Shown here in pieces: positions 2,601 through 41,953 of a stretch of 42,025 nt of DNA. Position numbers and translations under genes: made by a program. Below the pieces are notes generated by a model. The model ran no database searches and was not told the origin of the DNA. It saw nothing but the letters and a program-made list of their open reading frames with translations. Source of the DNA: Sulfurimonas sp. (GTDB lineage Bacteria; Campylobacterota; Campylobacteria; Campylobacterales; Sulfurimonadaceae); contig NZ_JADGFC010000007.1 in NCBI RefSeq assembly GCF_016744025.1, positions 1 through 42,025 on the forward strand. The letters are read 5' to 3'. Position 1 is the stretch's first letter. Every line of letters begins with the position of its first letter.

Positions 2601-2683
2601 AAGATAAAGAATTAATAGGAATTTATAGTATTTATACGTTCAGAGAAGCTTTCCTTATTGAGATAAAGGTTAGTCATGCCTGA
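2597..2683 (+). CDS. Possible 28-aa ORF before the integrase
   Basis: A TTG-started frame that overlaps the end of the 59-aa gene and the first bases of the integrase gene. Its product would start MKDKELIGIYSIYTFREAF. The chain of overlaps hints at translational coupling, with the integrase ATG inside its last codons. It is very short and has no recognisable family, so it may be chance. Confidence 0.25.
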   Translation: MKDKELIGIYSIYTFREAFLIEIKVSHA

Positions 2684-10235: not shown

Positions 10236-11870
10236 TCAGCTTACATGTTTATGAAATTCTTTATCCAAAAAAAGAACCTCTGGGTTTATTGCTGGTTTAC
10301 CAAAATAATAACCCTGAGAGTAATCCACACCAAGTTTACATAACTCTTCGTAAATATTTTTATTTTCAACATATTCAGCTATTGTTTTTATTTTATGCTT
10401 TTTACAAAAGACCATTATTGACTCTATAACTGTTTTGTTCTTAGGGCATCCGATACCTTTCACAAACTGACCATCTATTTTTACATAGTCGAAAGTTATT
10501 TTTGTTAAATGAGCAAAGTTAGAATATCCTGCTCCAAAATCATCTATTGCTATTTTGGCATTAAAACCTCTGACATAACGACTAAATTTGTTAAAAAGCT
10601 CATAGTTGCAAATATCTATTGTTTCTACTATTTCAAAAGTAACTCTAGAGGATACTTGTGTTCCTTTTTCTAAAAGTAATTTAAAAATTAATGCACGTGT
10701 TGTAACATCAATAATATCTTCCATGGATATATTTAAAGAAAGAGATATACTTCTGTCTTCTTCAAGCTTGTTAAATACTCTTTTTAGTACTACTTTTGTT
10801 ATTTGACTATACATGCCAGTTCTTTGAGAAAGATTTAGAAATTTATCTGGACTGATTATTTTTCCTTCTTCGTCTTTAATTCTAACTAGTGCTTCATATT
10901 TATAAGCAGATTTTGAAGAACAACACACTATAGGCTGATAAAAGACAATCACTCTATCGTCACTTAAAGCTGAACGTAAAAGAGAAGTCATTTTCATATT
11001 ATTGACCTTATCTTCAGTCAAATCAAGTTTTTTAGTATAAAGACAACCGGTATAGTGTAATCTTTTTGCTTCTTTGTAGGCAAGGTTCGTATATTCTAAT
11101 GCGTTGTATGGAAGAGTGTAAGAAGCTCCTAGAGTAACTCTTACATTTATATTCTTGTCAATTATTCTAATATCAGTTGCAAATAGTTTTTTAATAGAAT
11201 TTATTAAACGGTTCAATATTAACTTTACATCTTGTTCTGCTACTTCATCCGCATTATAAAGCAGTCCAAATTCATCATCTTTAATTCTGTATAATGTAAA
11301 TTTTCCAATCAATGAAAGTTTTTGCGAAACTACTTTTAATACATGGTTTCCGTACTCACCACCATAAATACTATTAATACTAGAAAAATCATCAATATCT
11401 ACAATTGCAAAAAATACTTTTTTCTTATCATTACAACTAGATAAATCTTTTTTAAGAGATGTTTTGTTTTTTAAGTCTGTCAATAAGCAATGAGTTTTCT
11501 CATACATTGAATTTGTTACATCATTACTTATTAATAAATATCTTTGAATATCTTTTTTAGCTTTGTCTTCTGAAAAAAGAGGAGTAATAATTGTGTTCAA
11601 ATATAATAGAGAGTTATCTCTAGTCCTGTATATTTGTATTCCTTTCCACAGTTCACCTCTTCTTATAACTATCCATGATTCAGCAATTTGCTCAACTTCC
11701 TCTATTGATTGTTCACTGCAACAAAAGCTTTGATTTTTCCCTACTAGTTCTTTTTTTTTATATTTCATCATTGATGCAAAAGACTCTGAGCAATCAATAA
11801 TATTTGCATTGTTATCATAAACACAATATATTGTATTCTTAAGTATTTCAGAAATTACTAAATTTTTCAT
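10236..11870 (-). CDS. PAS-GGDEF-EAL protein, predicted c-di-GMP phosphodiesterase
   Basis: A 544-aa cytosolic protein. Residues 1-125 form a PAS domain (IYCVYDNNANIIDCSESF, then GELWKGIQIYRTRDNSLLYLN). A GGDEF domain at about 130-285 has a decayed site: RIKDDEFGLLY at about 194-204 gives KDDEF in place of GGDEF, so it should not make c-di-GMP. The EAL domain at about 300-540 keeps every catalytic motif: YEALVRI, LSLNIS, EIVET, AIDDFGAGYS, VKIDGQF, IAEYVEN and SQGYYFGKP. It should hydrolyse c-di-GMP, possibly tuned by the PAS and the degenerate GGDEF domain. The gene lies 28 bases after the lytic transglycosylase with AGGGAAG before its ATG, so it is probably the last gene of the traH unit. 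That places a c-di-GMP hydrolase under tra expression. Confidence 0.93.
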   Translation of the reverse strand: MKNLVISEILKNTIYCVYDNNANIIDCSESFASMMKYKKKELVGKNQSFCCSEQSIEEVEQIAESWIVIRRGELWKGIQIYRTRDNSLLYLNTIITPLFSEDKAKKDIQRYLLISNDVTNSMYEKTHCLLTDLKNKTSLKKDLSSCNDKKKVFFAIVDIDDFSSINSIYGGEYGNHVLKVVSQKLSLIGKFTLYRIKDDEFGLLYNADEVAEQDVKLILNRLINSIKKLFATDIRIIDKNINVRVTLGASYTLPYNALEYTNLAYKEAKRLHYTGCLYTKKLDLTEDKVNNMKMTSLLRSALSDDRVIVFYQPIVCCSSKSAYKYEALVRIKDEEGKIISPDKFLNLSQRTGMYSQITKVVLKRVFNKLEEDRSISLSLNISMEDIIDVTTRALIFKLLLEKGTQVSSRVTFEIVETIDICNYELFNKFSRYVRGFNAKIAIDDFGAGYSNFAHLTKITFDYVKIDGQFVKGIGCPKNKTVIESIMVFCKKHKIKTIAEYVENKNIYEELCKLGVDYSQGYYFGKPAINPEVLFLDKEFHKHVS

Positions 11871-13132: not shown

Positions 13133-14815
13133 CTAATGAGCCTTTGCTTTATTAAGTCGTTTTTGAAGAGTGTCTTGTTTCAAACTGTTGAAAATACTAT
13201 CGAGATTATTAAGATAGATAACATCACCGGAATAATCAACTAAAGCTTTAGCTATTCTTTTTGAAATATCTTCAATCCCTTTAATGTATCTATCTGCTTC
13301 ATGAGCATTTTCAGCATTTGTTCTTATACTATCAGCGGCATCTTTTTTAGCATCTCTAATAAGTTGTTCCATCGCATATTTAACATTTATTTTAGCTAAT
13401 AGGTCTGCATATTTGGGAAAATCTTTTGATTCAGCATACTTTTTAATTATTGAAACATATTGACTTCCCTTAGGCATGAATACTCCTATAGGGGTAGTTG
13501 CGGCAGAATATGTAGCACTATCTAGTATGTGCAATATTGTTTCATATGTTGCATTTTTAATTCCCGCAAAATTTAAGTCATAAGAATTCGTAGGATTATA
13601 ATCCCCGTTAGCTTGTAAATAAAATTTGGAAGTTATAGACCCATCTGCTCCTCCATCTTTTGATGTTTTTTCACTACTCAATAGTAAAACATATTCAAAA
13701 TCTGTTGGAACTTTTATACTATTTGTTGAAGTTCCCGTTAGTCCTTCTCCAGTTATAAAAGAAACAACTGTTTCACTGTCGTTAATTGGAGGGTAGAAAT
13801 TTAACTTATATGAAGGAGAAAGAGAATTACCTTTCACTACGGCCTCTGCTATTGCTTTTTTTGATTCTGCAGATAGCTCTATCTTACCATCTTCATCAAG
13901 CCCCGTAATTGCCATTGTTCCGTTCTCTGAACTTACTGCTAGAACTCCAAATATTGCAATTCTCATTGCCTCATAATTTCTCTCTTCTGAACTTATATTT
14001 AATGATTTACTATCAAATTCATTGTCGTTGAGAACCTTTTTTAAAGTATCTTTCTTGACTGAGTAAGCATCTGCAATACTATATTTACTAGTAACCACAT
14101 CTGCAAGTACAGAAGATACTACACCAAGAACTTCTTTTTTTGGTTTCGCAGTTACACCAGGTTTTGCCGACATTCCCATAGCAACGGCTGTTGCATTTTT
14201 TATACAAGCAGTATCCGTTGTCTCGCAATCAAGCATCTTTTCAAATTTTTCAACTTTGTCTACAGCTCCTTGCATAGTATCGTTAAAATAATCAGCGCCA
14301 GAATTTTCAGATAACCAATCTTGAGTCTCCTTTTTAGCCTTAGAAGTTGTTTTGTTGTTATTTAATAACGCCACTGTACTTTGACAAGCATTGGCAAGCA
14401 TACTTTGCAGTTTTCTAATTAACTTTTGAATATTTTCAAAGGCTTTAGCTAAGCTTGGCATTGTTTGCAATAGAACAACTATCACGCCCATTCCTACAGA
14501 TGAAATGGCTTGTTCTAGTTGCTTACCTATAGTTTCTAAATCTAAAAAAGCCGCGAACCCTGCATCAAGACTAATTCCACCACATCCTGCTGTTATTGAT
14601 GGTGGTCTAGCTTTAACCCAAGGGGCAAAAGAGGTTACACTTTTTTTAAATTTAAAATTTACTGCTCCAAAATTATTATATGTTATTCCAGAAGAAGGAT
14701 CTTTCCATTCACTTGAGGCAGTAGTGCTACTTTGTTGTAAAACCAAATCAGCTGCATTAGAACTAGTAAAAAGCAATGCAAGCACCAACGAAATAGATAT
14801 AATTTTATTTTTCAT
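13133..14815 (-). CDS. traH: TraH-like pilus assembly protein
   Basis: A 560-aa exported protein (signal MKNKIISISLVLALLFTSSNA). The diagnostic TraH segment is near residue 72: PPSITAGCGGISLDAG followed by a hydrophobic stretch, LLQTMPSLAKAFENIQKLI and SMLANACQS. This corresponds to the GCGGIDxxxGSFSFI...CPTI...C pattern of the family. The C-terminal part has the long helical region seen in TraH. F TraH is about 458 aa, so this one is longer. In F plasmids TraH is needed for pilus extension with TraF and TraW/U/TrbC. It overlaps the upstream thioredoxin-fold gene by 11 bases and precedes the periplasmic helper genes. The middle region is divergent. Confidence 0.82.
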   Translation of the reverse strand: MKNKIISISLVLALLFTSSNAADLVLQQSSTTASSEWKDPSSGITYNNFGAVNFKFKKSVTSFAPWVKARPPSITAGCGGISLDAGFAAFLDLETIGKQLEQAISSVGMGVIVVLLQTMPSLAKAFENIQKLIRKLQSMLANACQSTVALLNNNKTTSKAKKETQDWLSENSGADYFNDTMQGAVDKVEKFEKMLDCETTDTACIKNATAVAMGMSAKPGVTAKPKKEVLGVVSSVLADVVTSKYSIADAYSVKKDTLKKVLNDNEFDSKSLNISSEERNYEAMRIAIFGVLAVSSENGTMAITGLDEDGKIELSAESKKAIAEAVVKGNSLSPSYKLNFYPPINDSETVVSFITGEGLTGTSTNSIKVPTDFEYVLLLSSEKTSKDGGADGSITSKFYLQANGDYNPTNSYDLNFAGIKNATYETILHILDSATYSAATTPIGVFMPKGSQYVSIIKKYAESKDFPKYADLLAKINVKYAMEQLIRDAKKDAADSIRTNAENAHEADRYIKGIEDISKRIAKALVDYSGDVIYLNNLDSIFNSLKQDTLQKRLNKAKAH

Positions 14816-21699: not shown

Positions 21700-24089
21700 T
21701 TTCCATCCCTTTCTATTGAATTTTTGCAACCAAATGAAATACATTTTCCAGAATCTATGTCAAACTCTTTTCCACTCTCGCAAGTTACTTCAACACAAGA
21801 ACCATCACTTTGTTGGTATACATTCTCTTTAGTTTCACAACCGTATCCATTTCCACAATACTCAAAATATGGTTTATTACTATCGCATGATTCAGTAACA
21901 CAAACTTCCTCCGCTATTGCATCTGGAAAATCTAATGAAATTATTGTATCAAAGTACGTTTGATCGTATAGAGTAGGTGAATAATTTGTAGGACACTGAT
22001 TATATTGGCAGTAGTGGTCAGAACAAGCGAGTGGAGAACATACAAATATAGTACTTAAATTATTAACTGCTGTGCTTTTTATAGAATAGTCTTGATTTGA
22101 AAATGAGTTTGAACTATCACTCTTTATTACACAACTGCCATTCTCAAGATCACCATCGCTATAATTATATGCACTTCCACTCTTAAAACTAAGACCTTTT
22201 AAAATATTATCTTCTTCTTCTGTCTCTGCCATAGCTATATAAAATGTTGTGCCATCAATAAGACTTTGACAATTACTTTTAGATATTAAGCCATTATAAA
22301 CTCCGTACACCGAAGAATTGTTTTCAGAATAGAATCCGGTGAATCCTTCATTGAACAATGAGTGAACTTCTTTATCTTGATAATTGAATCCATCATCTTG
22401 ATCTTCTTTAGGAACAGAAGGTAGTATAGATATTACTCCAATGAAGCCCCTTTTGTATTCATCCCAAAATTTAATGTCTTGTTCATCTGCAAGCACAGAT
22501 GTAATATCACTAGATATATAGATTCCTTCAATATTTCCAACTTTCCCACTCAAGGTACAAGTAGAGTGGATTGAACCAATACTGCTTTTTTGCTCTTGAA
22601 TATTGTACGCAATAATCTTGTTTCCATCTTCAACTTTTAACTGCTTAATTCCATTCAAATAATCAATACTTCCACTAACTGTACAGTCTCCTTTAATCGC
22701 CAAACAACTATTAATACCTTGCGCATCTTCAAAGCATATAGATTTTCCATCATCTTCTGCATACATTTTTACTAATCTATATTCACATTTAGTTGATGAA
22801 TCTGTACACAATATTGGTAGGTTGTTTCCATATCCTTCTTCCTTAAAAGAGCCGGACACATTGTTTTTTGCAAGAGGTCTAAAATAATCTATAGATTTAT
22901 TACCAATATTATCTCCACTAGATACGAAACATTGGTTACCATTTCTACTATCAGGAGCACAACTTTTAGTTAAGTTAACAGTGCGGATACAGTTATCTAA
23001 TGCCTCTGTATCATCAGCATTACAAAACGGTGTACTTCCACATGTTCCATCACTTAATACATGCTCATTCTCTAAGCATGAAGTATCTTTTTCGCACACA
23101 TCACTTAATGTTGAATATGTAAACTCGGCATTATTGCAGGTTCTATTAACTGTCTCTCCACATCCTTCTTCTGTTGATTGACAATTTGGCATCATAGCGC
23201 AATATGATGTATTGCTATCTTCATATGCCTCAGTATTTCCACATTGATTTTCTTTTTCGCACTGATGAGTAGATGAATTATAAATCATACCTTTTTCTAT
23301 ACACATATCTTCGTAAGCTATAACACATTTACCACTAGAGGGCTCTAGCACTAGAGGAGACTCACAATCAATAGAACACTCCTGATATTTCCTTTTACAT
23401 ATTGGTTGAACCGAATGGCTATATATTGTAGTGGTTAAATTATTAACCACTGTCAACTCACCATCAATCTTGCTACCATCATTTTCTATTGGGCTATTAA
23501 GTTCCCACGAAAACCCTTGTGGATTCAGACTATTTTCTTCGCATGTATATTCTTCAAAAGAATAAGATATTTCTTTTTTACATGCTGCTCCACCTGTTGG
23601 ATTTGAAACTTCAGAATATCCATTAGGACACTCAACAACTATTTTTGTGGTTGCAGGATAATATCTTCTAATTGATGTGCTGAAGTACATATCAGAGCCT
23701 CTTCCTCCACTTCGTGAACTGAAACTAACTGTGAAATCTATATAGCCTCCATAATAAGAACTCCAAACTTTTGTAGCTGAAAGTGAACCTGCATTTCTCG
23801 ATAGAGGAATAGTGACACCGCCCACTAGATTACTACTATTTGGTAAGTCAAAAGTGTTCCAACCTTTTGCACTTTTTCTTTCTCTCCAAAATCTATTTGC
23901 TGTTGACCATGAACCGTAGTATCCGGGGACAGACACCACTGTATTTACTTTTCCAGCATAATCAGTAATTGTCTTTGTGGTAATCTCAATAGAAGATTCT
24001 GTGTCTTCGTATTCATATTTACAACTAGCGAATAGACTAACACTAAATATAAAAACAAAAATAACTGATACTTTAAAAAAATATCTCAA
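21678..24089 (-). CDS. Cys-rich exported protein with duplicated beta-rich domain
   Basis: An 803-aa protein with a signal sequence (MRYFFKVSVIFVFIFSVSLFA). Residues about 57-147 (from YYGSWSTANRFWRERK to SIRRYYPA) form a Ser/Gly/aromatic domain that is identical to one in the 480-aa protein upstream. It is followed by CPNGYSEV and a series of short Cys modules (CIEKGMIYNSSTHQCEKENQC, CEKDTSCLENEH) like EGF or tip-adhesin knobs. The C-terminus again has CESGKEFDIDSGKCISFGC. It resembles TraN-like cell-surface recognition proteins in style only. The start overlaps the M50-like gene (ATGA). A role in recipient recognition is inferred. Confidence 0.75.
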   Translation of the reverse strand: MRYFFKVSVIFVFIFSVSLFASCKYEYEDTESSIEITTKTITDYAGKVNTVVSVPGYYGSWSTANRFWRERKSAKGWNTFDLPNSSNLVGGVTIPLSRNAGSLSATKVWSSYYGGYIDFTVSFSSRSGGRGSDMYFSTSIRRYYPATTKIVVECPNGYSEVSNPTGGAACKKEISYSFEEYTCEENSLNPQGFSWELNSPIENDGSKIDGELTVVNNLTTTIYSHSVQPICKRKYQECSIDCESPLVLEPSSGKCVIAYEDMCIEKGMIYNSSTHQCEKENQCGNTEAYEDSNTSYCAMMPNCQSTEEGCGETVNRTCNNAEFTYSTLSDVCEKDTSCLENEHVLSDGTCGSTPFCNADDTEALDNCIRTVNLTKSCAPDSRNGNQCFVSSGDNIGNKSIDYFRPLAKNNVSGSFKEEGYGNNLPILCTDSSTKCEYRLVKMYAEDDGKSICFEDAQGINSCLAIKGDCTVSGSIDYLNGIKQLKVEDGNKIIAYNIQEQKSSIGSIHSTCTLSGKVGNIEGIYISSDITSVLADEQDIKFWDEYKRGFIGVISILPSVPKEDQDDGFNYQDKEVHSLFNEGFTGFYSENNSSVYGVYNGLISKSNCQSLIDGTTFYIAMAETEEEDNILKGLSFKSGSAYNYSDGDLENGSCVIKSDSSNSFSNQDYSIKSTAVNNLSTIFVCSPLACSDHYCQYNQCPTNYSPTLYDQTYFDTIISLDFPDAIAEEVCVTESCDSNKPYFEYCGNGYGCETKENVYQQSDGSCVEVTCESGKEFDIDSGKCISFGCKNSIERDGKCYKSLY
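23651..23918. repeat. 268-bp perfect repeat, copy 1
   Basis: Identical at every base to 25655-25922, and in the same orientation. It encodes the YYGSWST...RRYYPA domain of the 803-aa protein. Both flanks diverge immediately. Silent positions are conserved too, so this is recent copying or gene conversion rather than protein-level selection. Confidence 0.95.
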
Positions 24090-29426: not shown

Positions 29427-30452
29427 CTACTCCTGATATGCAAAAGCTGCATAATCTCTTCTTTGATTAATAATAAAGAAAACATTTTTACCACTTTCTC
29501 CTGCACCATGAAAATTATACTGGGCAGGTGATACTCCAAGTTCATGAGTTTTACTAATTGTCGGAAATAACAATTGAGTAGTGTATGCAGATTGAGGAAA
29601 AATTGGATTAATTACTGAACGACATAATATTTCTTTAGAGTGATTATTTAGTATATTCCTTGTGGTGTGGTTGGCAGAAATATCTGCAACAACACCTCTT
29701 CTACTAAACATATCATAAAAAATAGAGTTAATTGCAAGAATGCCATTTGATATTGGGTCTTGATGTACAGTACTCGTTCCGGTTGGAGTTGGTCCGAGGC
29801 AACCTGTAGAGAAGTAAAACAGATCAATTGTGTCTTTAAGTTTCTCTGCTATGCCACTTACTCTTCTTGATGAAGGGGACATAGCATCTAGTCCTGAATA
29901 AGCAACACAGGTTACTGCAGATGCAAGTTGCGCTCTAACTGAAGCAAATATTTTTTTTTCTGGAGTCATGTCACTTGCCATTATATTATCCCATTTTTTA
30001 GGATCAAATATACCTATATAGACAGGGTTGATGCTCCCTTTCTCAAATACCATTGCACCTCTAGTTGTATTCTTTAATAACATATTCATTAGTGGGAACT
30101 TTATTAAATTAACATATATGCCACCATCATCACTATTGTTTCCTGTTTTAGACGCGTCTTCAAGAAGAGTTGTGCTGAAAGCTTTCATCTCTCCTTTTCT
30201 AATACTGACTCCTGCAAGATACAAGGGTTCTGTTATAGTTGCTATATATGGGCTAATAAAGCCTTTATCTGTATTCTCTGGGGTGCAAGTGGTAATCTTA
30301 AAAGTCATTGTTACTTCTGCCCACATACTATCCCAGTCATAATTTTCAAAGAAAAGTTCTACTCCAGACTTGTTTCTTGCTTCGTCCACACTACTTTGTG
30401 CTAGAAGGAATAAAGGGAAGGTTAGAATAGCTATAACTATGTATATTTTCAT
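29427..30452 (-). CDS. traU: TraU-like pilus assembly protein
   Basis: A 341-aa exported protein (MKIYIVIAILTFPLFLLAQ). It is divergent, but the C-terminal part keeps the TraU layout: SKEILCRSVINPIFPQSAYTTQLLFP, then HELGVSPAQYNFHGAGESGKN and FFIINQRRDY, matching the usual C...P.i.Ks.Y..Q...P....C..lG.s......p..ge..yl.w..r. Length is near F TraU (330). Several of the usual cysteines are missing. It sits between traW and trbC, which supports the call. It overlaps traW by one base (TAATG). Confidence 0.78.
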   Translation of the reverse strand: MKIYIVIAILTFPLFLLAQSSVDEARNKSGVELFFENYDWDSMWAEVTMTFKITTCTPENTDKGFISPYIATITEPLYLAGVSIRKGEMKAFSTTLLEDASKTGNNSDDGGIYVNLIKFPLMNMLLKNTTRGAMVFEKGSINPVYIGIFDPKKWDNIMASDMTPEKKIFASVRAQLASAVTCVAYSGLDAMSPSSRRVSGIAEKLKDTIDLFYFSTGCLGPTPTGTSTVHQDPISNGILAINSIFYDMFSRRGVVADISANHTTRNILNNHSKEILCRSVINPIFPQSAYTTQLLFPTISKTHELGVSPAQYNFHGAGESGKNVFFIINQRRDYAAFAYQE

Positions 30453-32673: not shown

Positions 32674-33990
32674 TTAAACACTATTTACTTCCATATTATA
32701 TGTATGTAATGCATCGTTCTTTTTTAACCATCTATCTAGGGACTCTTTTTTGGTTGTAAGTTGATTATATATATCCGTTACTTTTGAGAATTTCAGATTT
32801 TGATAAACTGGGCTATACAAATTAGTCACCAAAATATTTTTATCTACAATCTGTTCAAGTATCATATTTTGCTCATGATGAGATATTACACTTTGCGTTT
32901 GTTTTATGAGGCTTAAGAAATTTTGTATTATATTCCTTATCTCATTTTTTTTATTTTCAAATTCTTCCAAATCACCATAAGCATATGTTCTCCTAAATTT
33001 TAAAAAATCAGCGAATTGTCCATCAATAACTGAAAGAAGTTTGTTTTGACTATTTTCAATTTCTTCAATAAATTTAATTACTACATCTAATTGTCCAAAA
33101 ATTTCATCGTTTAATATTTTCTCTATCTTTGGGATATCTTTTTCTTCATTCCACATAATATGCTTCATTAAAAACAACTCACTTAGATCAACCTCTTCTC
33201 TCTTATTCAGAAATGCTGATACTAAAAAAACATCTACCGCCCCATCGAACTTTCTATCACTTACTCCAATTTCTAATAACACGACTTTTTGTCTAATAGC
33301 ATACAGTGTCTTGTATATGTTATCAGGAATACTAACGTCTTTAGAGAGGGTATTAATGCTTCTAACTTCATCTGGTGAAAACTTGGTCTTCATTATGGGA
33401 TTTGTATCATAATCTCTAGAAGCAAACTTTATCCAATCATCCGATCCGGAAATCTTCTCAACTTTATATGAAAATAAAAATCTATCCCTTAAAGGTCTCA
33501 CTTCTATATCTGTAGGCAACTCATTTGAAGCACCTCCAACCATCAAAAGAGGTACTTCTACAGAACCCTCTCCTATAATATCAACTGTTCTGTAATCAGA
33601 CATAATTGATAAAAAAGCATTCATTATTTTAGAATTACCTTTCCATGTTTCATCAACAATAGCAAAGTCAGCTTCAACAATTGAATTATTAAAGTCGCTC
33701 ACTAATCTTCCCCCATCTTCTCTGTAACTATCCCCGAATATTTCTTCATACTTTGTATCGTTCTTGATGGTTATGCTAAAAGATTTTCTTGAATCTATTG
33801 CAGTGGCTAAAATTTTTAATATTCCTGTTTTACTAACGCCAGGTTCACCTAATAAAAACGTATGCTTTAGAGAAAATAACGAAAGAACAAGTATTTGAAC
33901 TAGTTCTTCTCTGTCTATTTGTTTTCCATTTAACTCATTCATTAATTCAACTACTTTTTTTAGTAGTTCTTCTATATGCTCTGGATTCAT
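32674..33990 (-). CDS. MoxR/RavA-type AAA+ ATPase
   Basis: A 438-aa AAA+ ATPase of the MoxR group. The Walker A is GEPGVSKT (48-55), the Walker B ADFAIVDETWK (107-117), sensor 1 GGASNELPTD (152-161), with PLRDRFLF (166-173) giving the arginine-finger area. The C-terminal part is helical with a coiled coil, as in RavA. No VWA partner gene adjoins it. MoxR proteins act as chaperone-like remodelling ATPases. A place inside a T4SS operon, overlapping the coupling-protein gene by 4 bases, is unusual and suggests a role in assembly or in loading the coupling ATPase, which is inference. Confidence 0.88.
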   Translation of the reverse strand: MNPEHIEELLKKVVELMNELNGKQIDREELVQILVLSLFSLKHTFLLGEPGVSKTGILKILATAIDSRKSFSITIKNDTKYEEIFGDSYREDGGRLVSDFNNSIVEADFAIVDETWKGNSKIMNAFLSIMSDYRTVDIIGEGSVEVPLLMVGGASNELPTDIEVRPLRDRFLFSYKVEKISGSDDWIKFASRDYDTNPIMKTKFSPDEVRSINTLSKDVSIPDNIYKTLYAIRQKVVLLEIGVSDRKFDGAVDVFLVSAFLNKREEVDLSELFLMKHIMWNEEKDIPKIEKILNDEIFGQLDVVIKFIEEIENSQNKLLSVIDGQFADFLKFRRTYAYGDLEEFENKKNEIRNIIQNFLSLIKQTQSVISHHEQNMILEQIVDKNILVTNLYSPVYQNLKFSKVTDIYNQLTTKKESLDRWLKKNDALHTYNMEVNSV

Positions 33991-35834
33991 GATGCCAATT
34001 CCCTTTCATTATCTTCAAGTATTTTTTCATAACTCGCAAGTTCTCTTTTCTCTACTTCTTCACTTAGCTTTGGCATTTTAATGGATGCAGCAGGGGGCGT
34101 TCTAAATGGAAACTCCATATAAAAAGTTTTCCCATCATGCATAAATATACCTTCTCCTACGGGAAGAGCTTTTATATCTTGTGGACTACACATAAATTCT
34201 TCCGAAATATCAGTAGTGTATCTACCCTCTGAGCCACTTCCTCCTGCTGAAACCATAGCAATTGTTTTCATTTGCTTAAATGTGCCAATCTCTTCAGCAG
34301 CATTTCTTAATGATAACAATGTGTTTTGTCTCATAATTCCCTTGCTATTAACATTGTCTAATATTATGCTAGACAAAGTCTCACCTACTGCTTCTTTGTA
34401 ATCTTCGTCAGTTTGAGTGTAAACAAAAACACTAATCCCTAAACCACCTGCTCTATTAAAAAAACTTTCAATACCAGGGTAAGCGATTGCACCTGCTTCA
34501 TCTATAAATATAGCTACTCTTCTTGGTAATCCTCTACCTTCTGCTCCAACTGCACCCATCATCGAATCAAGCATACCTAGAAGCATTTTATTAAATATGT
34601 CAGCTGATTTTTTGAATTTCATAGGAAAAGGCTGTATTACAGAAACAATACCTTTGTCTTCTCTAAGTAGTCTGTTCATAAGTGGGTTTATTCTGATTCC
34701 ACATAATAGTTCACCAATCGGACCAACACTTAAAGCGGTAAGTCTATTTGTTAGAGTTTTTGATACTTTTGCAAAATGAGTCTCTTCAGTAGATAATGCA
34801 CTTTTGAGTAGGACTAATGCATCTCTTCTTAGAGCTGCTATATTTTTTCTGTATTTAACTTCTCTTTCTATCTCTACTGTTTCAACAAGGGTTTTAAGAG
34901 ATCTAAGTGTCTTGTAGTGTGCATAATATTCTAGCTCCCTAAAAGTTATAAGACTTCTGTTGAATCCATTCTCTTGAAATTCCAACAAAAGAGCTTCATC
35001 AATAACATTGCTTTTAAATTCTTCAATCATATCAATATTATCAAGATCAATATTTTCTAAAAAGTCATACTCTTCTTTGTTTTTACTATTTAAAAAAGCA
35101 TGATATCTCTTCAATTCTTTTTGCTCTAGCATTTTTGTAATTTTTCCGGTAGGATCGCTTATTTCTTGTAAATATTCAAAACTGCTCGTTATTGCCATAA
35201 GTATTTCTTCAGCAGTTTCAAGATAAAACGAGTCCATTGTAGGTGTCTTAATTGATTCAACTATTCCTCCGGTCAGTTCTAAATTACTTAATCCATAGCA
35301 AACGTTTATTCTTTGCGATATTGAAGCAAATGCTGGTGAAAAATATGTTAACTCTTCAGCTCTTTTATATTTAAAACAGCTCTCTACAACTGAAGACAGA
35401 ACTTCTTGATTTACTCCACCTTTAGGGTCTATCACAATGACGTCCATATTCTTGGCAACACATTGTTCAATATGTCCTTGCATATTTATTGTTTTTCCTA
35501 CTCTCGTTGAACCCTTAAACCCACAATGATTATCAAGTTTCCCCCATTTAGCTATTATAGGTTTAGGCTCAGGCGTGTTAGTATTGTTGAGTTCAAAGCC
35601 AACTCCAAAATACATCCCTTCACTTATGTTGTACATATTTCTTTCTGCTGCATCTAATTTTTTTTCTATATGAATTTTTCTCTGTACTATTTCAGTTTCT
35701 GAGTGTTCGCTTATTTCATTTTTGACTTTATCAAGTTCATTGTTTATTTTTTTAAATTCTCTCTTCCAATACATTAATTCTTTAAAATTTTCATCCGCTT
35801 TCTTGATTGGTTTTCTTTTTTTTTTAAATAACAA
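33987..35834 (-). CDS. traD: TraD/VirD4-like coupling ATPase without N-terminal membrane anchor
   Basis: A 615-aa P-loop ATPase of the type IV coupling protein class. The N-terminus (residues 1-75) is charged and coiled-coil (RKIHIEKKLDAAERNMYN), with no transmembrane helix, unlike F TraD. Then come GKLDNHCGFKGSTRVGKT with Walker A GSTRVGKT (about 106-116), VIVIDPKGG, and Walker B VAIFIDEAGAIAYPG (about 438-452). FVYTQTDEDYKEAVG follows, as the sensor region of VirD4-type ATPases. It would carry relaxase-DNA to the channel. It overlaps TraC by 11 bases and the MoxR gene by 4. TraC and TraD are normally far apart in F; adjacency here may mean the two ATPases work together. Confidence 0.82.
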   Translation of the reverse strand: MLFKKKRKPIKKADENFKELMYWKREFKKINNELDKVKNEISEHSETEIVQRKIHIEKKLDAAERNMYNISEGMYFGVGFELNNTNTPEPKPIIAKWGKLDNHCGFKGSTRVGKTINMQGHIEQCVAKNMDVIVIDPKGGVNQEVLSSVVESCFKYKRAEELTYFSPAFASISQRINVCYGLSNLELTGGIVESIKTPTMDSFYLETAEEILMAITSSFEYLQEISDPTGKITKMLEQKELKRYHAFLNSKNKEEYDFLENIDLDNIDMIEEFKSNVIDEALLLEFQENGFNRSLITFRELEYYAHYKTLRSLKTLVETVEIEREVKYRKNIAALRRDALVLLKSALSTEETHFAKVSKTLTNRLTALSVGPIGELLCGIRINPLMNRLLREDKGIVSVIQPFPMKFKKSADIFNKMLLGMLDSMMGAVGAEGRGLPRRVAIFIDEAGAIAYPGIESFFNRAGGLGISVFVYTQTDEDYKEAVGETLSSIILDNVNSKGIMRQNTLLSLRNAAEEIGTFKQMKTIAMVSAGGSGSEGRYTTDISEEFMCSPQDIKALPVGEGIFMHDGKTFYMEFPFRTPPAASIKMPKLSEEVEKRELASYEKILEDNERELAS

Positions 35835-38800
35835 CTTGTTCTTCCTTTAGTAACCAACCTTGATAAAAATCCAGACCCTTTTCTTTAGCTTTTGATAATT
35901 CTTTTTGATTTTCTACCTTAAGTGCAACAAGTTGCTTCTTATTACTTTCGTGTTTTGAAAAGGCCACTATCATTTCGAGAATGTTTGAAGCAGGTTCATT
36001 ATCATCTGTATCCAATAATCCTCTGTCTATATTGATATAGTCAACGTCTAAAGCAACAAGGTAAGACATTTTATGATAGTGTATTCCGACATTATCAATT
36101 GCTACTCTTGCTCCTAAATCTTTCATTCGTGAAATAAAAGTTCTCAACTCTTCAATGTTATTATTGCTTACTGTATCTTTTAACTCAATAACTAATTTAT
36201 TTTCCATTCTATAAGATACAGCTAGTTCGATAAAGGCTCTCCAATAGTCTTCATTTCTGATTTCAGAGTTGTTTTCGTTTATATGGATATCTAAGTCAAT
36301 ATCTTCAAAATACTTAAATGCTTTTGCATACATAATCATATTGTATTCTTCTACTTTATTAAATTCTTCTAGCCATTTTGAAACAACTCCATATGTTGAT
36401 ATAGTTCCATCGTTGTGCTTGATTTGAGAGAAAATTTCATAACCAGTTATTTTATCTTCCTTTATCGAGCATATAGGCTCTGCTCTAACTTGAACTCTTC
36501 TATTTTTGATTGCACTAGATATCTCTTCTTCCCAATATTTTTTCTCTTCAGTGCCTTTTATGCGGTTATGCTCAGAGTATGTTTTAGCTTTAAAGAGAAG
36601 ATCATTATCATTAGAATCTGGGTATTGTGCTTTATATACAAGATATCGAACTGTTTCAATTATTGATAATCTATATTTTTTTCTTGTATCATCAAATATT
36701 TTATTTCCTGACGGATCAGCACCGGCTGAAACCCAATGCGTTTTAGGAGAAGTCTTGATTATGAAAACGTTAGCTCCACTTTTCTTTGACATATAACAAG
36801 CCTCACCCCAATATGGTTTTTTATTTGCTACTGATTCAAAAGTTCTAACTTCGTAAGAATCTAATGGAAAGAATTTTCCACCAGCAACTTTTTGAATTTC
36901 TTTTTTATCTTGTGCCAAAAGAAACTTATGGTATGAGCTAGAGAACAATACTTGCATACTGCTATTCGCTGAAAAATCTTCAATGCCTTGTGTAATAAAA
37001 CCCTGACCACTTAAAGATTTTCTCAAAGTTCTTGCATTATTTTCTAAAATTTTTACTACAATTTCATTGTCTTTGTACATCCATCCTTCATCAATATCTA
37101 ATGTTTTTTCTCTTACGTTACCCTCTTTCCAAAATTCACTTTTAATAGAAAATGCAAGTGAGACCAATACAACATCAAGAATAATCCCTTTAAGACCAAG
37201 AGTGTCTAGCACAACGTAGTCTTTTCCAAGGTCTAGATTGTTTGGTGTGTTGAATTTTGAATAATGACTACCTTTAGGATCTGCAAAGTCAAACATCCCA
37301 ACTGAAACATTGTAAAGAAGTTCTGCTTGTCTTAAATTCTTTTTTGATTTTTCTTCTCTTGAGTAACTTTCTATAATATCTTTTGTGTATTCAAGTCTCC
37401 CTTCATGCTGATGAACCAAGAAAGTTTCTATAACTGCCCTCTTGATTTTACTTGCCAGATAAGCTTCTTCAGTTGCATCTGAAGCACTCTGCTCTTTTCC
37501 TGTCTGAACAAGATTCAGTCCTACCATTAATCCAATAATAGGAACAATACCGTCTATCTCTTCAGTATGAAGAGTTGGTACTCTACTTCCATTACCAACA
37601 TCAACAAGAAATTCTTCTTCGGTTTCTTCATCTTCGCCCTGTTCATTAGCAACTAGCACCTTAGCAGTATTGGCTTTTGTATAAAAGTTAAGTGAAACAC
37701 TTTTATTTCCTCCAATATCTATATATGTACCACCAACTATTTCACAGAATCTTCTATAAGAGTGTCCATTATCTATAACTCTTATTTTTACTCCGGATGA
37801 AAGTTTCATAATATGGGCATATGCCTGTGAGTATGACTTACCTGCTCCAGTAGCACCTGTTTTAGCTTCGTTGTAACTATCTCCACTAAAATTGTCATAT
37901 GGAATTATTTGGCCATTTCTATCATAGTAGGGAATCATCATTCGATTTGTAGCAATATTTCCTAATAATGGGGCAATTGAAGCTGTATTACTAGTGAATA
38001 AAATATCATATCGTTTTAAAAAATCTTCCACATGTTTATGATGTTGCAAAGGAAGGGAATATAAAAATGCAAATAATGTAATATTTCCAAACTTTTCTTC
38101 TTCTATATGCCAATCTTTTGCTCTAAATCTTTCTTTTAAAACCTTTGAGTATTTATCTAAATCATCTATGTTCTTTTCCATTAAAGTTACTTGAAACATT
38201 GCTTTCAATGGAGTTTGGTTTTGTTGCTCAACTAAGTCAATATTTCGCTTAGCTTCTTTCAACCTCTCATCTAGTTCTGGATGTTGTTCTCTAACATCAC
38301 GCTTAAGCTTTCTAACATTAGTGATATCATTTCTTGATTTTTTAGAAGCATTTTCGCGGGCATTATCAACATCATCAACTATAACAGTTAAAGAAGCAAA
38401 AAATGGACAAGGAAGTGGGATTTGTATGCTCTCCCCGAATCTATCAAAAAATAAGTTATAAAAATCATAGCTAGATAAAATAGTTGAACTGTTTGGGAAT
38501 TGCTTTGTTGTGAATGTTCTATATTTCCAATCATCCCCCACTGAAATATAATCAGCATCCGCAGAAGTTTTAATAGTTGTTCCCATAGAAGCAATCTGCT
38601 GATTCATTACCTTATGTCTATCGTAGCTGTTTTCCCAATCTTCCATTTCTTGTCCTGGATTTAACATTTCTTTCAACATTCTGACAAGAGAGCCTCCATT
38701 AAAGTTTATTGGAAACAAATTTCGTAGATTTCCTAAACTTTGATTATAAACCTGAGAAATATATCTATCATCTGTACCTTCTGGAAATAAGATTGAAATT

Positions 38801-39303
38801 GTACTGATAAAATCTTTAATCCTAAAGTCTACACCGTCCACAAGACTATCTTTAATACCAGACTTCATAAAGTCGTAAGAATCATCAACAAGCTCTTTTA
38901 AAACACTCGTATGGTCTACATTAATATTACAATGATGAAGATGTTTAAAGCTTTCAAGTAAATAGTTTATATTTCTACTTCCAAATGTATTAAAATGTAT
39001 AATAGTCCCCGGATCTGTAAGAGTATCAACTAAGCTAAACATAGAGTCTTCTATAGATTTAGAAGAAAAAGCAGTAGGAAAAACTCTTAATATAATTCCT
39101 TTTCTGCCGTCTGCCATATGATATGTTCCCATACCTTTATCATTTTCTTTATAATATCTATACAAAAGAAAATCAGACACTCCTTTTTGTTCTAAAAAAG
39201 CTTTTAAATTTTTCTGAGAAAGTCCTTGAGTATTTTGAAGTTCTTCTTTCGGGGCAAGAAAAATCTTTGCCATTTCGATGCCTAAATCTATATATTTACC
39301 CAT
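35824..39303 (-). CDS. traC: TraC (VirB4-type) ATPase fused to a C-terminal degenerate EAL domain
   Basis: An 1159-aa protein, long for TraC (F TraC is 875 aa). Residues 1-900 are TraC: an N-terminal domain (GMGTYHMADGRKGIILRVFP), Walker A TGATGAGKS (about 480-488), the DNGHSYRRFCEIVGG strand, Walker B LDIDEGW (about 735-741), then LSGQGFITQGIEDF and KFFPLDSYEVRTFE. Residues about 930-1155 form an EAL-like domain: GYEIFSQI (for GYEALVR), LVIELKDT, ARVAIDNVGIHYHKMSYL (for iaiDDFGtGyssl), DVDYINIDRGLLD (for KIDrsf), LVALKVENQKEL (for AEGVE), DFYQGWLL. The first Glu, the second-strand Glu, one Asp and the Gln remain. The second Asp (now Asn), Lys (Asn), the Asn (His) and EGVE Glu (Leu) are lost, so it should not hydrolyse c-di-GMP but might bind it. 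SD AAAGG. Confidence 0.9.
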   Translation of the reverse strand: MGKYIDLGIEMAKIFLAPKEELQNTQGLSQKNLKAFLEQKGVSDFLLYRYYKENDKGMGTYHMADGRKGIILRVFPTAFSSKSIEDSMFSLVDTLTDPGTIIHFNTFGSRNINYLLESFKHLHHCNINVDHTSVLKELVDDSYDFMKSGIKDSLVDGVDFRIKDFISTISILFPEGTDDRYISQVYNQSLGNLRNLFPINFNGGSLVRMLKEMLNPGQEMEDWENSYDRHKVMNQQIASMGTTIKTSADADYISVGDDWKYRTFTTKQFPNSSTILSSYDFYNLFFDRFGESIQIPLPCPFFASLTVIVDDVDNARENASKKSRNDITNVRKLKRDVREQHPELDERLKEAKRNIDLVEQQNQTPLKAMFQVTLMEKNIDDLDKYSKVLKERFRAKDWHIEEEKFGNITLFAFLYSLPLQHHKHVEDFLKRYDILFTSNTASIAPLLGNIATNRMMIPYYDRNGQIIPYDNFSGDSYNEAKTGATGAGKSYSQAYAHIMKLSSGVKIRVIDNGHSYRRFCEIVGGTYIDIGGNKSVSLNFYTKANTAKVLVANEQGEDEETEEEFLVDVGNGSRVPTLHTEEIDGIVPIIGLMVGLNLVQTGKEQSASDATEEAYLASKIKRAVIETFLVHQHEGRLEYTKDIIESYSREEKSKKNLRQAELLYNVSVGMFDFADPKGSHYSKFNTPNNLDLGKDYVVLDTLGLKGIILDVVLVSLAFSIKSEFWKEGNVREKTLDIDEGWMYKDNEIVVKILENNARTLRKSLSGQGFITQGIEDFSANSSMQVLFSSSYHKFLLAQDKKEIQKVAGGKFFPLDSYEVRTFESVANKKPYWGEACYMSKKSGANVFIIKTSPKTHWVSAGADPSGNKIFDDTRKKYRLSIIETVRYLVYKAQYPDSNDNDLLFKAKTYSEHNRIKGTEEKKYWEEEISSAIKNRRVQVRAEPICSIKEDKITGYEIFSQIKHNDGTISTYGVVSKWLEEFNKVEEYNMIMYAKAFKYFEDIDLDIHINENNSEIRNEDYWRAFIELAVSYRMENKLVIELKDTVSNNNIEELRTFISRMKDLGARVAIDNVGIHYHKMSYLVALDVDYINIDRGLLDTDDNEPASNILEMIVAFSKHESNKKQLVALKVENQKELSKAKEKGLDFYQGWLLKEEQVVI

Positions 39304-39336: not shown

Positions 39337-39648
39337 TTATTTGTAATTTTCAAGCTTCTTTGAAACCTGATACTCTGGAATTATTTCTTTATTTCTCAAT
39401 ATATCTAGTTCTTTTTCTTGTTGATCAATTTTAATTTGCATTGCTTCAATTTTTGAGATATTTCGAGATGATATTGTTTTAATTTCACCAAGTACTTTCT
39501 CTTCTTTTTGCTTCATATTATTTACATCTTGCAGTAAAAAGTATGTCGTCTCTTTTAAATCCATAATGCTCACATCATCCTGAGCGCTCAAATTACAAGC
39601 ACCTAATACTAAAACTAGCATTGCTAAAATTATTTTTCTCTTTTCCAT
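39337..39648 (-). CDS. Small coiled-coil lipoprotein
   Basis: A 103-aa protein with a lipoprotein signal (MEKRKIILAMLVLVLGACNL; lipobox LGAC with the acylated Cys at residue 18). The mature part is coiled coil (NNMKQKEEKVLGEIKTIS, then KIEAMQIKIDQQEKELDIL). It overlaps TraV by one base (TAATG) and lies before traC. It may be an outer-membrane-anchored spacer between TraV and other core parts, which is inference. No F counterpart is recognised at this place. Confidence 0.65.
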   Translation of the reverse strand: MEKRKIILAMLVLVLGACNLSAQDDVSIMDLKETTYFLLQDVNNMKQKEEKVLGEIKTISSRNISKIEAMQIKIDQQEKELDILRNKEIIPEYQVSKKLENYK

Positions 39649-40310
39649 TATTTTAAACCTCCGTTTATATTTTCATCTTCACTACCATAGGATATATTAA
39701 TCTCTTTTTCTACAGATTCTTTTTTAACTATCTTTGCATTGTTATTCTCATCTACTTTCGCTTTTTTCATGTATTCTTTTATTGCTTTATCATATTTAAG
39801 TATTGACTCTTTTTTTTGCGGCTTCATTCTTTTTGTTTTTTTAGAGTACTCGTAGGAGTTCATATAATCTTTAATTTGACTATCTGATATATTATCACTT
39901 CCTAAACTGCTGTTGTTATACGTCAAATCTTGACTTCTAAAAGAGAAAGAACGAGCTCCATATGACTTGCTAACAGTATCTCTTCTACTTCTGGGTATTT
40001 GTTCTCCTGCAATGAATCCTGGCTCTCTAATCATAGTTACAATAGAGTGAGTGGCTACAAAAGTTTTATTTTTATTTTTGTAATTTTTTACCCAAATCTT
40101 CGCCCACTCTCCCATGTCAATCATGACTTTAGTGTCTGATTGCTTAGTTCCAATAACTGGTTTAAATCTAAACTCAATAGGATTATTTCTTCTTTCATAA
40201 TTCTTAGTACTTTTGTTCACCCACTTTGTTTTAACTTTTGGAGAAGTGGTGCATCCTCCAAAAGTTAAAGTGATAGTAATAAGTGCAAAATATATTATTT
40301 TTTTATTCAT
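39648..40310 (-). CDS. traV: TraV-like outer-membrane lipoprotein
   Basis: A 220-aa protein with a lipobox (MNKKIIYFALITITLTFGGC, acylated Cys20). The central segment MIDMGEWAKIWVKNYKNKNK followed by FVATHSIVTMIREPGF and IAGEQIP fits the TraV rwi.pw.d..g.y......v...i..g.W pattern. The order traB-traV-traC matches F plasmids. TraV (VirB7-like) with TraB and TraK forms the outer-membrane core. It lacks the extra cysteines usual in TraV and is longer (171 aa in F). The C-terminal 70 residues are charged. Confidence 0.75.
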   Translation of the reverse strand: MNKKIIYFALITITLTFGGCTTSPKVKTKWVNKSTKNYERRNNPIEFRFKPVIGTKQSDTKVMIDMGEWAKIWVKNYKNKNKTFVATHSIVTMIREPGFIAGEQIPRSRRDTVSKSYGARSFSFRSQDLTYNNSSLGSDNISDSQIKDYMNSYEYSKKTKRMKPQKKESILKYDKAIKEYMKKAKVDENNNAKIVKKESVEKEINISYGSEDENINGGLK

Positions 40311-40321
40311 TTGTTTTCCTT

Positions 40322-41953
40322 TTAGTAATTTTCTAAATGAGCTTCTTTATATGGAGTAGCAATTATTTTAACTCCACCAGCAAAAATAGCAGTTAGATTT
40401 TTTCTACCACCTTTTATATCAATAAATGGATAGTAACCGCTGAGTATCTTTTCATATTTTGCTATAATTAAATCAAATCCTGTTTCCATACCTGAACCAA
40501 CTCCACTCTGAACAGAAGTACCAAGTTGAGATATAGTTGATTGAGTAGTGTTCACTACCCCTCCAGTAACGAGATTTTGTGCTGAAAAGTAGTTTGTAAG
40601 CCCTTGTAAGAATCCAATTGCTGCTGACTTAGATAATATTTTACCGCTAGAGTCTACTATTAAACCTGACACTCCATCAGCACCATCTTCTCCCTTAATC
40701 CACACTTCATTATCTGGAAAGGTATGTTCAATTTTATACAAATCACCACTATCTCCCTCAAGAATGCAACTTAGATGTGTTCCAAATATTTCAGCGCGAC
40801 TTGTATTAATATTTCCAACTGCAACACCCCTCAAAAGGCATCCTTTAAGTATCCCGCTTGTTTGATCGTTAGCTGCATATGCAATACCATCAACACTCAT
40901 TAGAACGGGAGTTGGATTTTTAACGCCAATATCAAGGGTGGGAGCTTTAATTCCATTGATAAGGGTAATTCGTACAAGAGTAGTTGTAAGGTCAAATTCA
41001 AAATTTTTTATTTTACTTTGATTTAAATCTTTCATTCCCGTATCAAACGATAGTTCTTGAATTTCTACAGAACCCATATCAACTTCAACTGTTTCATATT
41101 CGACTTCTTTTATAATTTTTATATCTGCGACTCTATTATTCGTATCCAAAAGCTCATTTCCGCTATTACTATTGTTGGTATTTAGATCTGGAATTGGGTT
41201 AATAACTTTCGTTGAACTATTCGCATTTGGAAATATTATTTTTCCATTATTAAGTTTGAGTCTTGGAGCATTTTTATATCCTTCAACTTTTTTTTTTAAA
41301 TTAGTTATCGTCCTCTTAGTATCCGTGTTTGCAGAAATAACATCTCCTACTTTTTGGTCAACTATTTTAAGAATACTTTTTTTTGTATTTTCCAATTCTA
41401 TAGTCTGCTTATCACTAAGCTCTGTTAACTTCGTATCAATATGCTCGGTTATAACGCTTGTTTGTTCTAGCATATTTGCACTAATTACTTTTCTGCCATC
41501 CTCAGCTTTTTTTTCAACAATATTGATTTTGTCATCTAAAATATTTTGTTCAAGAAAATAATCTTTTTTATCAATTCCACCAAAAGACGTAGTATCGTTC
41601 AATATGCTTTTGATATTAATTGGTCTTCTAGCCATTTGTTCATTATCTTGAAGAGCAAGGATAACTGCACCCGTTATTAAAATAACCACCAATCCTACAA
41701 GTCCAAGTTTCTGTGCCATTTTTTTAAGATAACCAGATCTTTGTTTTTGCATATCACCAAGAGTTGTTTCACTATTTTCAAGCTCTTTTTGCTTTTGCTT
41801 TATATCTTTATTTATATCTTTTTTAACTTCTCTTTTTTTAGCAAATTCTTTTTTATTGAAGTTTTCAATCTTAGAATATAATTCAACGAAAAAATTCTTT
41901 TTTCTATCAGAGAAGTTTTCTTCGTTATTAATAGCATCTTCATTATTAGGCAA
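40322..41953 (-). CDS. traB: TraB/VirB10-like T4SS core protein (TTG start)
   Basis: A 543-aa protein. The start is TTG at 41953, with AAAAGGGG ending five bases before it. The cytosolic N-terminus has a coiled coil to residue 75, then one transmembrane helix at about 84-103 (LGLVGLVVILITGAVILALQ). A long coiled-coil region follows (SANMLEQTSVITEHIDTKL), with an Asn/Pro-rich spacer. The C-terminal VirB10-type beta domain starts near residue 315: LRGVAVGNINTSRAEIFGTH, LSCILEGDSGD, then VSGLIVDSSGKILSKSAAIGF (given in part), as in TraB of F-like systems. It spans the periplasm and joins inner-membrane ATPases to the TraV/TraK core. Confidence 0.85.
   Translation of the reverse strand: MPNNEDAINNEENFSDRKKNFFVELYSKIENFNKKEFAKKREVKKDINKDIKQKQKELENSETTLGDMQKQRSGYLKKMAQKLGLVGLVVILITGAVILALQDNEQMARRPINIKSILNDTTSFGGIDKKDYFLEQNILDDKINIVEKKAEDGRKVISANMLEQTSVITEHIDTKLTELSDKQTIELENTKKSILKIVDQKVGDVISANTDTKRTITNLKKKVEGYKNAPRLKLNNGKIIFPNANSSTKVINPIPDLNTNNSNSGNELLDTNNRVADIKIIKEVEYETVEVDMGSVEIQELSFDTGMKDLNQSKIKNFEFDLTTTLVRITLINGIKAPTLDIGVKNPTPVLMSVDGIAYAANDQTSGILKGCLLRGVAVGNINTSRAEIFGTHLSCILEGDSGDLYKIEHTFPDNEVWIKGEDGADGVSGLIVDSSGKILSKSAAIGFLQGLTNYFSAQNLVTGGVVNTTQSTISQLGTSVQSGVGSGMETGFDLIIAKYEKILSGYYPFIDIKGGRKNLTAIFAGGVKIIATPYKEAHLENY

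Follow-up and report, generated by a model that had tools for sequence, protein, structure and literature searches.

What is the role of an EAL domain at the end of a conjugation ATPase? Type IV secretion systems require ATPases of the VirB4 class; to our knowledge, the switching of their activity is poorly known. We analysed 42,025 nucleotides of a Sulfurimonas sp. contig (NZ_JADGFC010000007.1; this whole stretch is called the window in the following), which contain an F-like tra cluster with TraB, TraD, TraH, TraU, TraN and TrbC. The traC gene of that cluster encodes a protein of 1159 aa which ends in an EAL domain (Table 1). As stated in the initial annotation, both parts lie in one uninterrupted reading frame, with its ATG at 39303, its stop at 35824 and zero internal stops.

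Table 1. Features of the traC-EAL gene and of its tra cluster in the window.
Feature	Position	Strand	Basis or remark
traC-EAL (VirB4-class conjugation ATPase with C-terminal EAL domain), 1159 aa	35824..39303	-	ORF, Pfam, NCBIfam, relatives
TraC_F_IV N-terminal domain, residues 43-419	38047..39177	-	Pfam
Walker A GATGAGKS, residues 483-490	37834..37857	-	G, K, S invariant across the fused family
Walker B DIDE, residues 736-739	37087..37098	-	D738 and E739 invariant across the fused family
Long linker helix (predicted) into the EAL barrel, residues 899-933	36505..36609	-	AlphaFold2
EAL domain, catalytically degenerate, residues 926-1152	35848..36528	-	Pfam, alignment, AlphaFold2
TraD/TraG-type coupling protein, conserved neighbour	33987..35834	-	first 11 bases shared with the end of traC-EAL
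MoxR-type AAA ATPase, a neighbour conserved among fused clusters	32674..33990	-	profile match, cluster comparison
Conserved small tra protein, 220 aa, upstream of traC-EAL, without Pfam family	39648..40310	-	
TraB/TrbI (VirB10-like)	40322..41953	-	profile match
PAS - degenerate GGDEF - EAL protein, candidate partner phosphodiesterase, same tra cluster	10236..11870	-	
TraH, tra cluster member	13133..14815	-	
TraU, tra cluster member	29427..30452	-	profile match

The TraC part is recognized by the Pfam families TraC_F_IV (PF11130; E 8e-26) and P-loop_TraG (residues 480-545, E 1e-11), and the C-terminal part by EAL (PF00563; E 2.3e-33) with a profile score of 116 bits, which is above the cut-off of 31.3. 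The TraC-F-type model TIGR02746 matches over residues 61-838 (E 4e-98) with 329 bits versus an equivalog cut-off of 567. The protein stays below this cut-off and is therefore treated as a divergent TraC of the TraC-like/VirB4 class rather than as an F equivalog. Both Walker motifs are intact and invariant at their key positions, in agreement with the earlier claim of a complete TraC. The top structural matches of a full-length AlphaFold model are VirB4/TrwK; its pTM of 0.41 is too weak for placing the EAL domain on a TraC hexamer. From its sequence the protein is predicted to work as TraC, the VirB4-class ATPase, in an F-like conjugation system, and the joining of TraC and EAL in one chain is confirmed as a genuine fusion.

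A search of other Campylobacterota tra clusters, which had been proposed as a check, revealed 12 further genomes or contigs with the same full-length architecture. The 13 full-length fusions are spread over five families of Campylobacterales, and four aligned full-length relatives are 25-31% identical to the window protein. Two fusions lie in complete replicons, the plasmid pAMYT of Malaciobacter mytili and the chromosome of G172. The pAMYT protein (WP_114843316; full length, 25.7% identity over 99%) is annotated as 'EAL domain-containing protein', i.e. by its EAL alone; it keeps the ExLxR motif and has the same neighbours. MOB-suite assigns pAMYT to the non-mobilizable class. The gene order TraB/TrbI - orf - TraC-EAL - TraD - MoxR is conserved among the fused clusters.

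A single clade of fused TraCs is not rejected (p-AU 0.375), and every ordinary TraC falls outside of it. Nine other TraCs of Campylobacterales, with 820-949 aa and without EAL tail, form a separate clade. An ordinary TraC extension, which the initial annotation had named as the counter-reading of the C-terminus, thus does not apply to TraC at large; within the clade of fused TraCs the tail is the rule. The fused EALs also group together, with long branches (SH-aLRT 96), in an early tree, of which just this grouping is used and which included one row, HOST_L085, that is the 'DDFG' of a TraC and not an EAL, and which was left out of later alignments. Genomes outside the Campylobacterota were covered by one low-sensitivity scan and a plasmid collection. 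Among viral contigs no relatives of TraC or of the PAS-GGDEF-EAL phosphodiesterase were found; canonical viral EALs, found by pattern, were used solely for deepening the EAL alignment. In line with the initial annotation, the open-licence papers searched contain no description of the fusion and nothing relevant on a TraC or VirB4 with EAL or c-di-GMP, an absence which is no proof.

The AlphaFold model of the window EAL domain has a pLDDT of 87, and its closest solved fold is the EAL domain of LapD (3pjt, Z 27.2, 2.1 A over 234 residues, 19% identity). Both support a true EAL fold, as proposed for the C-terminal tail. According to the alignment E956, N1009, E1040, D1070, E1131 and Q1148 are kept, and N1071, N1091, L1128 and Q960 are changed. 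The initial annotation had listed four losses. The second Asp of DDFG is indeed replaced (N1071, with the first Asp kept as D1070), and so is the KID Lys (N1091), a loss limited to this family member. For EGVE the claim holds for the first Glu (L1128); the second is kept (E1131). The presumed loss of the NxS Asn is refuted by the alignment, N1009 being invariant in 14/14 fused EALs. The ExLxR motif reads EIFSQ, with Q960 at the position of the Arg.

Catalytic EALs require both Asp of DDFG, the KID Lys and the first Glu of EGVE, a set which is incomplete in the window protein. D296 is present in 17/17 catalytic EALs vs 1/14 fused EALs and E352 in 17/17 vs 0/14. The first Glu of EGVE is absent in all 14 fused EALs, the first Asp of DDFG is present in 13 of them, and a one-metal frame (E, N, E, D, the second Glu of EGVE and QG) is nearly invariant across the family. 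Only five of 214 columns are invariant (E, N, the second EGVE Glu, Q and G); four of these are active-site positions, and the fifth is a Gly adjoining one of them. Among the first eight sequences active-site positions made up 5 of 6 invariant columns (hypergeometric P 4e-7). Hence the fused EAL domain is almost certainly non-catalytic, to judge from the aligned residues, the second-metal and catalytic residues being gone and the one-metal pocket frame retained.

That the tail is an active phosphodiesterase, which lowers c-di-GMP near the secretion apparatus, is accordingly most improbable: the EAL fold is retained, as is part of its metal site, but two residues found in every catalytic EAL compared, the second DDFG Asp and the first EGVE Glu, are lost, and in the window protein the Lys is gone as well.

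Genes for c-di-GMP enzymes are found in several of the clusters. Four tra clusters (window, pAMYT, S. indica, G503) contain intact EAL genes, and that of G172 has a topoisomerase-GGDEF gene; the EAL of the PAS-GGDEF-EAL protein in the window has complete catalytic residues (EALVR, DDFGAGYS, AEYVE). In six fused clusters of family f14 no c-di-GMP enzyme was found in the cluster. In three hosts (G763, G719, G662) the fused EAL is the sole EAL and the single GGDEF is degenerate. Universal c-di-GMP sensing by the fused EALs, which was considered as a candidate, is weakened by these hosts; as they lack a second EAL and an intact GGDEF, c-di-GMP cannot serve as input in every case. The EAL part of the near-identical copies in G719 and G662 has a dN/dS of about 0.1, calculated from 9 changes, and is apparently under purifying selection.

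The explanation we lean towards is that the EAL tail would be a module which serves the conjugation ATPase in regulation or docking and which is coupled to c-di-GMP in part of the hosts. TraC is joined through the predicted helical linker to an EAL domain almost certainly unable to hydrolyse c-di-GMP, and this docking or receptor module may set the timing of TraC work, either in pilus assembly or in transfer. In hosts with c-di-GMP the tail might relay the signal, either because it binds the nucleotide itself or because it pairs with the EAL domain of a phosphodiesterase encoded in the operon. For the window protein a contact with a protein partner, e.g. the PAS-GGDEF-EAL protein, would be likelier than direct binding of c-di-GMP, because the ExLxR Arg, the KID Lys and the EGVE Glu are lost. 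The recurrence of the fusion in at least a dozen related bacteria points to a tie between DNA transfer and EAL signalling or a docking role. Against this explanation count the three hosts without other EAL, the f14 clusters without c-di-GMP enzyme and the weak full-length model, and also that the link between fused TraC and operon phosphodiesterase is not phylogenetically independent and that Sulfurimonas-type hosts carry dozens of such genes. A more specific version remains rather doubtful. It holds that the fused clade has a ligand-gated, one-metal, non-hydrolysing EAL pocket in a VirB4-class motor which switches pilus assembly, the ligand being c-di-GMP or, where the host makes none, another phosphodiester or nucleotide, with the matching phosphodiesterase or cyclase in several tra operons.

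A tail acting as direct c-di-GMP receptor, whose bound state turns the TraC ATPase on or off, we consider unlikely. The nearly invariant pocket frame, which the window protein keeps, is consistent with such a receptor, as is the nearest fold, a c-di-GMP-bound receptor. The exact ExLxR motif is present in 3/14 fused EALs (pAMYT, HLG_WM_MAG_12, G503) and ExFxR in four more, and the phosphodiesterases in the clusters would tune the ligand level. However, the positions of LapD R450 and E617 are occupied by Q960 and L1128 in the window protein, and the exchange E617A in LapD sharply lowers c-di-GMP binding (PMC3032545). The ExLxR motif and the first EGVE Glu, as found in receptors of the LapD/FimX type, are thus both missing, and since the KID Lys is lost together with the ExLxR Arg, binding of c-di-GMP by the window EAL is doubtful. 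The fusion is moreover kept where the host shows no visible c-di-GMP synthesis. The initial annotation had compared the degeneration to that of LapD and FimX and suggested direct gating by c-di-GMP or by a partner protein; the pattern is the reverse, which makes direct gating of the window protein by c-di-GMP uncertain, a doubt that the annotation had itself raised. As a whole the earlier interpretation is partly supported.

Quite improbable in our view is a dead EAL that serves as c-di-GMP-independent protein-binding or oligomerisation domain of a T4SS subtype, without signalling role. It would fit the three hosts without other EAL, in which the tail is retained under apparent purifying selection (few changes), and the conserved placement beside TraD and MoxR. 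Yet the conserved positions cluster in the ligand/metal pocket rather than on the surface, and c-di-GMP enzymes are encoded inside five other clusters. In addition, the ExLxR Arg position is C, Y and Y in hosts without c-di-GMP genes and R or K in 8/11 others.

A chance read-through, an assembly join or a decaying leftover can practically be dismissed, as a TraC of the fused clade without EAL in a sister cluster (G575) and a broken copy in G561 stand against the 13 full-length fusions (two in complete replicons), invariant pocket residues and a dN well below dS. An artefactual or frameshift join of traC and EAL is ruled out by the many independent fusions.

A signalling-type domain which is covalently attached to a VirB4-class motor and kept across five families offers a concrete handle on motor control. 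If the regulatory module is real, horizontal gene transfer would be linked to a biofilm/motility signal in the machine itself and not through gene expression alone. Hosts that lack visible c-di-GMP genes provide a natural test of the function of a dead EAL lacking its usual ligand.

Several known systems share single traits with the fusion. The EAL of LapD is likewise catalytically inactive and C-terminal. The c-di-GMP-binding Arg of ExLxR and first Glu of EGVE are R450/E617 in LapD and R481/E653 in FimX (PMC3032545, PMC7288161). LapD retains these two residues but neither Asp of DDFG, whereas the fused EALs keep the first Asp and have lost the EGVE Glu, the window copy also lacking the Arg; HAMP, GGDEF and membrane part are all absent from TraC-EAL. 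FimX, a type IV pilus regulator, also brings a degenerate EAL to a pilus ATPase system, but it is a separate protein working with PilZ and PilB, and its pocket degenerated by a different route; in TraC-EAL the domain is part of the ATPase chain. Besides FimX and LapD, MshE and the export ATPases FliI and HrcN are precedents for c-di-GMP effectors (PMC12564702, PMC5013675). MshE/HxrA, FliI and HrcN are assembly or export ATPases under c-di-GMP control, as is conceivable for TraC-EAL, but they belong to other ATPase families, and their sites are an MshEN domain or a subunit interface without EAL (PMC5013675, PMC12564702). SXT/R391 ICEs and plasmids carry diguanylate cyclases (reviewed in PMC10333796, PMC4542580); these c-di-GMP enzymes are separate cargo genes, and for the conjugation machinery as such no c-di-GMP domain has been reported. 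With F-type TraC (TIGR02746, PF11130) and VirB4 the window protein shares the TraC_F_IV domain, a P-loop of VirB4 type in which both Walker motifs are intact and the tra-operon setting, and it differs from them by about 260 extra C-terminal residues, which are the EAL domain.

Selection has maintained, in a T4SS clade of its own, a VirB4-class motor whose EAL tail is dead but conserved in its pocket. The window protein combines a TraC part with a C-terminal EAL domain (see table). The NCBIfam TraC-F-type model matches its residues 61-838 with 329 bits, which is under the equivalog cut-off, and the protein is therefore a divergent TraC. The EAL fold proposed for the tail in the initial annotation is borne out by an AlphaFold2 model of residues 852-1159 (23 aligned EAL sequences; pLDDT 87, pTM 0.76), whose closest solved structure is that of the c-di-GMP-bound EAL domain of LapD, with a Foldseek E of 1.5e-16, a VIA-align Z of 27.2 and 2.1 A across 234 residues. 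In this model a long predicted helix (residues 899-933) runs into the EAL barrel. The model of the whole protein has low confidence (pTM 0.41), and its top matches are VirB4/TrwK and EAL structures; both domains are thus recognised, their arrangement excepted.

Features of the window and of related tra clusters
Feature	Position	Strand	Source	Remarks
TraC-EAL	35824-39303	minus	window	single unbroken frame, 1159 aa
TraC_F_IV domain	residues 43-419		window TraC-EAL	Pfam
TraG-type P-loop	residues 480-545		window TraC-EAL	Pfam
EAL domain	residues 926-1152		window TraC-EAL	Pfam, E 2.3e-33
MoxR-type AAA ATPase	32674-33990	minus	window	directly after coupling protein
PAS - degenerate GGDEF - EAL	10236-11870	minus	window	all catalytic EAL residues; adjoins topoisomerase and UvrD genes
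ILEI-type domain protein	17659-21744	minus	window	1361 aa, within tra cluster
Stand-alone GGDEF protein	1522-2421	plus	window	299 aa, intact GGEEF; adjoins tyrosine recombinase (2676-3605)
Intact stand-alone EAL	L032:33747-35000		pAMYT tra cluster
Intact stand-alone EAL	L034:14548-15264		S. indica tra cluster
Intact stand-alone EAL	L108:8238-8975		G503 tra cluster
DNA topoisomerase, one GGDEF	L037:3339-6335		G172	intact GGEEF; ~3 kb after TraC
DNA topoisomerase, two GGDEF	L121:11651-15658		G575	intact GGEEF motifs
Unfused sister TraC	L049:1471-4257		G575	929 aa, stops just before EAL; coupling protein directly next
Broken fusion	L120:643-1722		G561	TraC end and EAL only

Full-length fusions occur in 13 genomes or contigs. 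Beyond the window there are 12 copies, namely in the Malaciobacter mytili plasmid pAMYT, S. indica NW8N, the Campylobacterales MAG HLG_WM_MAG_12, the complete chromosome G172, the genome G503, the contig JALUWO010000201.1 and six genomes of one family, f14 (G763, G719, G662, G656, G738, G732). The contig is binned as Candidatus Gracilibacteria, which is probably a mis-binning; its tra cluster is close to Sulfurimonas MAG sequences. One more fused copy (L042/G493) ends at a contig edge. The fusions span five families, all in one order, and four aligned relatives are 25-31% identical to the window protein. Among 4425 matching records of the plasmid collection pAMYT alone reached at least 80% query coverage.

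In the maximum-likelihood tree of the TraC part all fused proteins and the unfused TraC of genome G575 form one fully supported group, outside of which nine ordinary TraCs from the same order fall; the AU test does not reject a tree in which the fused proteins make up a single clade (p-AU 0.375). The G575 protein offers a natural tail-less comparison for the fused clade. The gene order TraB/TrbI - orf39648 - TraC-EAL - TraD - MoxR is repeated in the fused clusters within the reach of each contig or fetched stretch. The MoxR-type ATPase, to our knowledge no usual F-type tra gene, is kept after the coupling protein in these clusters and in G575. In the window, the start of the coupling-protein gene shares 11 bases with the end of traC-EAL, whose strand also carries TraB/TrbI, TraH, TraU, TraN-like and TrbC-like genes. 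The source genome (2.9 Mb, 252 contigs) belongs to the genus of Sulfurimonas indica (G076). The ILEI-type domain protein, with counterparts of up to ~1900 aa in other fused clusters, may be a large protein with a surface or adhesion role, and the stand-alone GGDEF protein may belong to the mobile element.

Pocket positions, in RocR numbering, were counted in 14 fused and 17 catalytic EALs. E175, N233, E355 and Q372 with the next Gly are kept in all fused sequences, so that the NxS Asn, initially annotated as lost in the window protein, is in fact present. E265 (Asp in the remaining copy), D295 and K316 are each kept in 13/14, the exception for K316 being the window protein (Asn). D296 (1/14), E352 and E268 (both 0/14) are absent from most or all, and the ExLxR Arg position holds R in seven copies, K in one and otherwise Q (window), S, S, C, Y and Y; these four residues are present in 17/17 catalytic EALs. 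Only the truncated G561 copy has both Asp of DDFG. Of the six EAL columns invariant in the first eight fused sequences, five fell on active-site positions (P 4e-7). Five columns stay invariant when all 14 are taken, four of them active-site positions and the fifth a Gly adjoining one of these. G719 and G662 are nearly identical, their EAL parts differing by 6 synonymous and 3 non-synonymous substitutions (dN/dS ~0.1). Judged from the kept and lost positions, catalysis is almost certainly gone, yet a one-metal frame is strongly kept.

The tail would act as a regulatory or docking module on pilus assembly or transfer, a reading that we favour by a modest degree. In hosts using c-di-GMP it would probably report c-di-GMP, in pAMYT-type members likely by ligand binding, and in the window member more likely through pairing with the putative operon phosphodiesterase at 10236-11870. 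Direct gating of the window protein by c-di-GMP, resembling the degenerate EALs of LapD and FimX, is rather unlikely. In a phmmer alignment (LapD chain number plus 399) R450 of LapD, which sits just past KVL in the middle of the c-di-GMP site (PMC3032553), aligns with window Q960, and E617, whose exchange to Ala severely reduces c-di-GMP binding (PMC3032545), with L1128; c-di-GMP contacts of FimX include R481 and E653 (PMC7288161). Gln-Arg in LapD stands against Asp-Asn in the window protein, and the two EAL domains have thus degenerated in opposite ways. Because both LapD site residues are missing, direct binding by the window protein is less credible, whereas the proteins of pAMYT, HLG_WM_MAG_12 and G503 would be better candidates since they retain ExLxR.

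In four fused clusters, that of the window included, an intact stand-alone EAL gene lies among same-strand tra genes; the nine F-like tra clusters from this order with an unfused TraC (~40 kb each) gave one weak partial EAL-like match only. The topoisomerase-GGDEF proteins of G172 and G575 are a second unusual c-di-GMP fusion within the same kind of element. No c-di-GMP enzyme gene was found in the six f14 fused clusters and no second EAL in the whole genomes of G763, G719 and G662 (99-100% complete), which each encode a single, degenerate GGDEF (YLGDSEFG, YLGGGRFG, YLGSGRFG). These clusters and genomes count against a universal c-di-GMP role. A purely structural, c-di-GMP-independent role of the tail is improbable in our estimate. 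The fused EALs of these three genomes keep the pocket E, N, E, D, K, E and Q, with His in place of the second Asp; their ExLxR Arg is C or Y, while R or K stands in 8 of the 11 other copies. That this Arg tracks the c-di-GMP genes of the host is suggestive only, because the fused copies are related. Each f14 genome encodes one degenerate-GGDEF protein of ~360-400 aa (L243-L248), which in three of them ends in (N/D)FEIS and is the sole GGDEF-like protein.

Conjugative elements with c-di-GMP enzymes (PMC10333796, PMC4542580) and c-di-GMP-binding assembly or export ATPases (PMC5013675, PMC12564702) are already known. As the initial annotation had supposed, no description of an EAL domain fused to TraC or VirB4 was found in a literature search restricted to open-licence papers; TraC-EAL represents a known machine with a new domain architecture.
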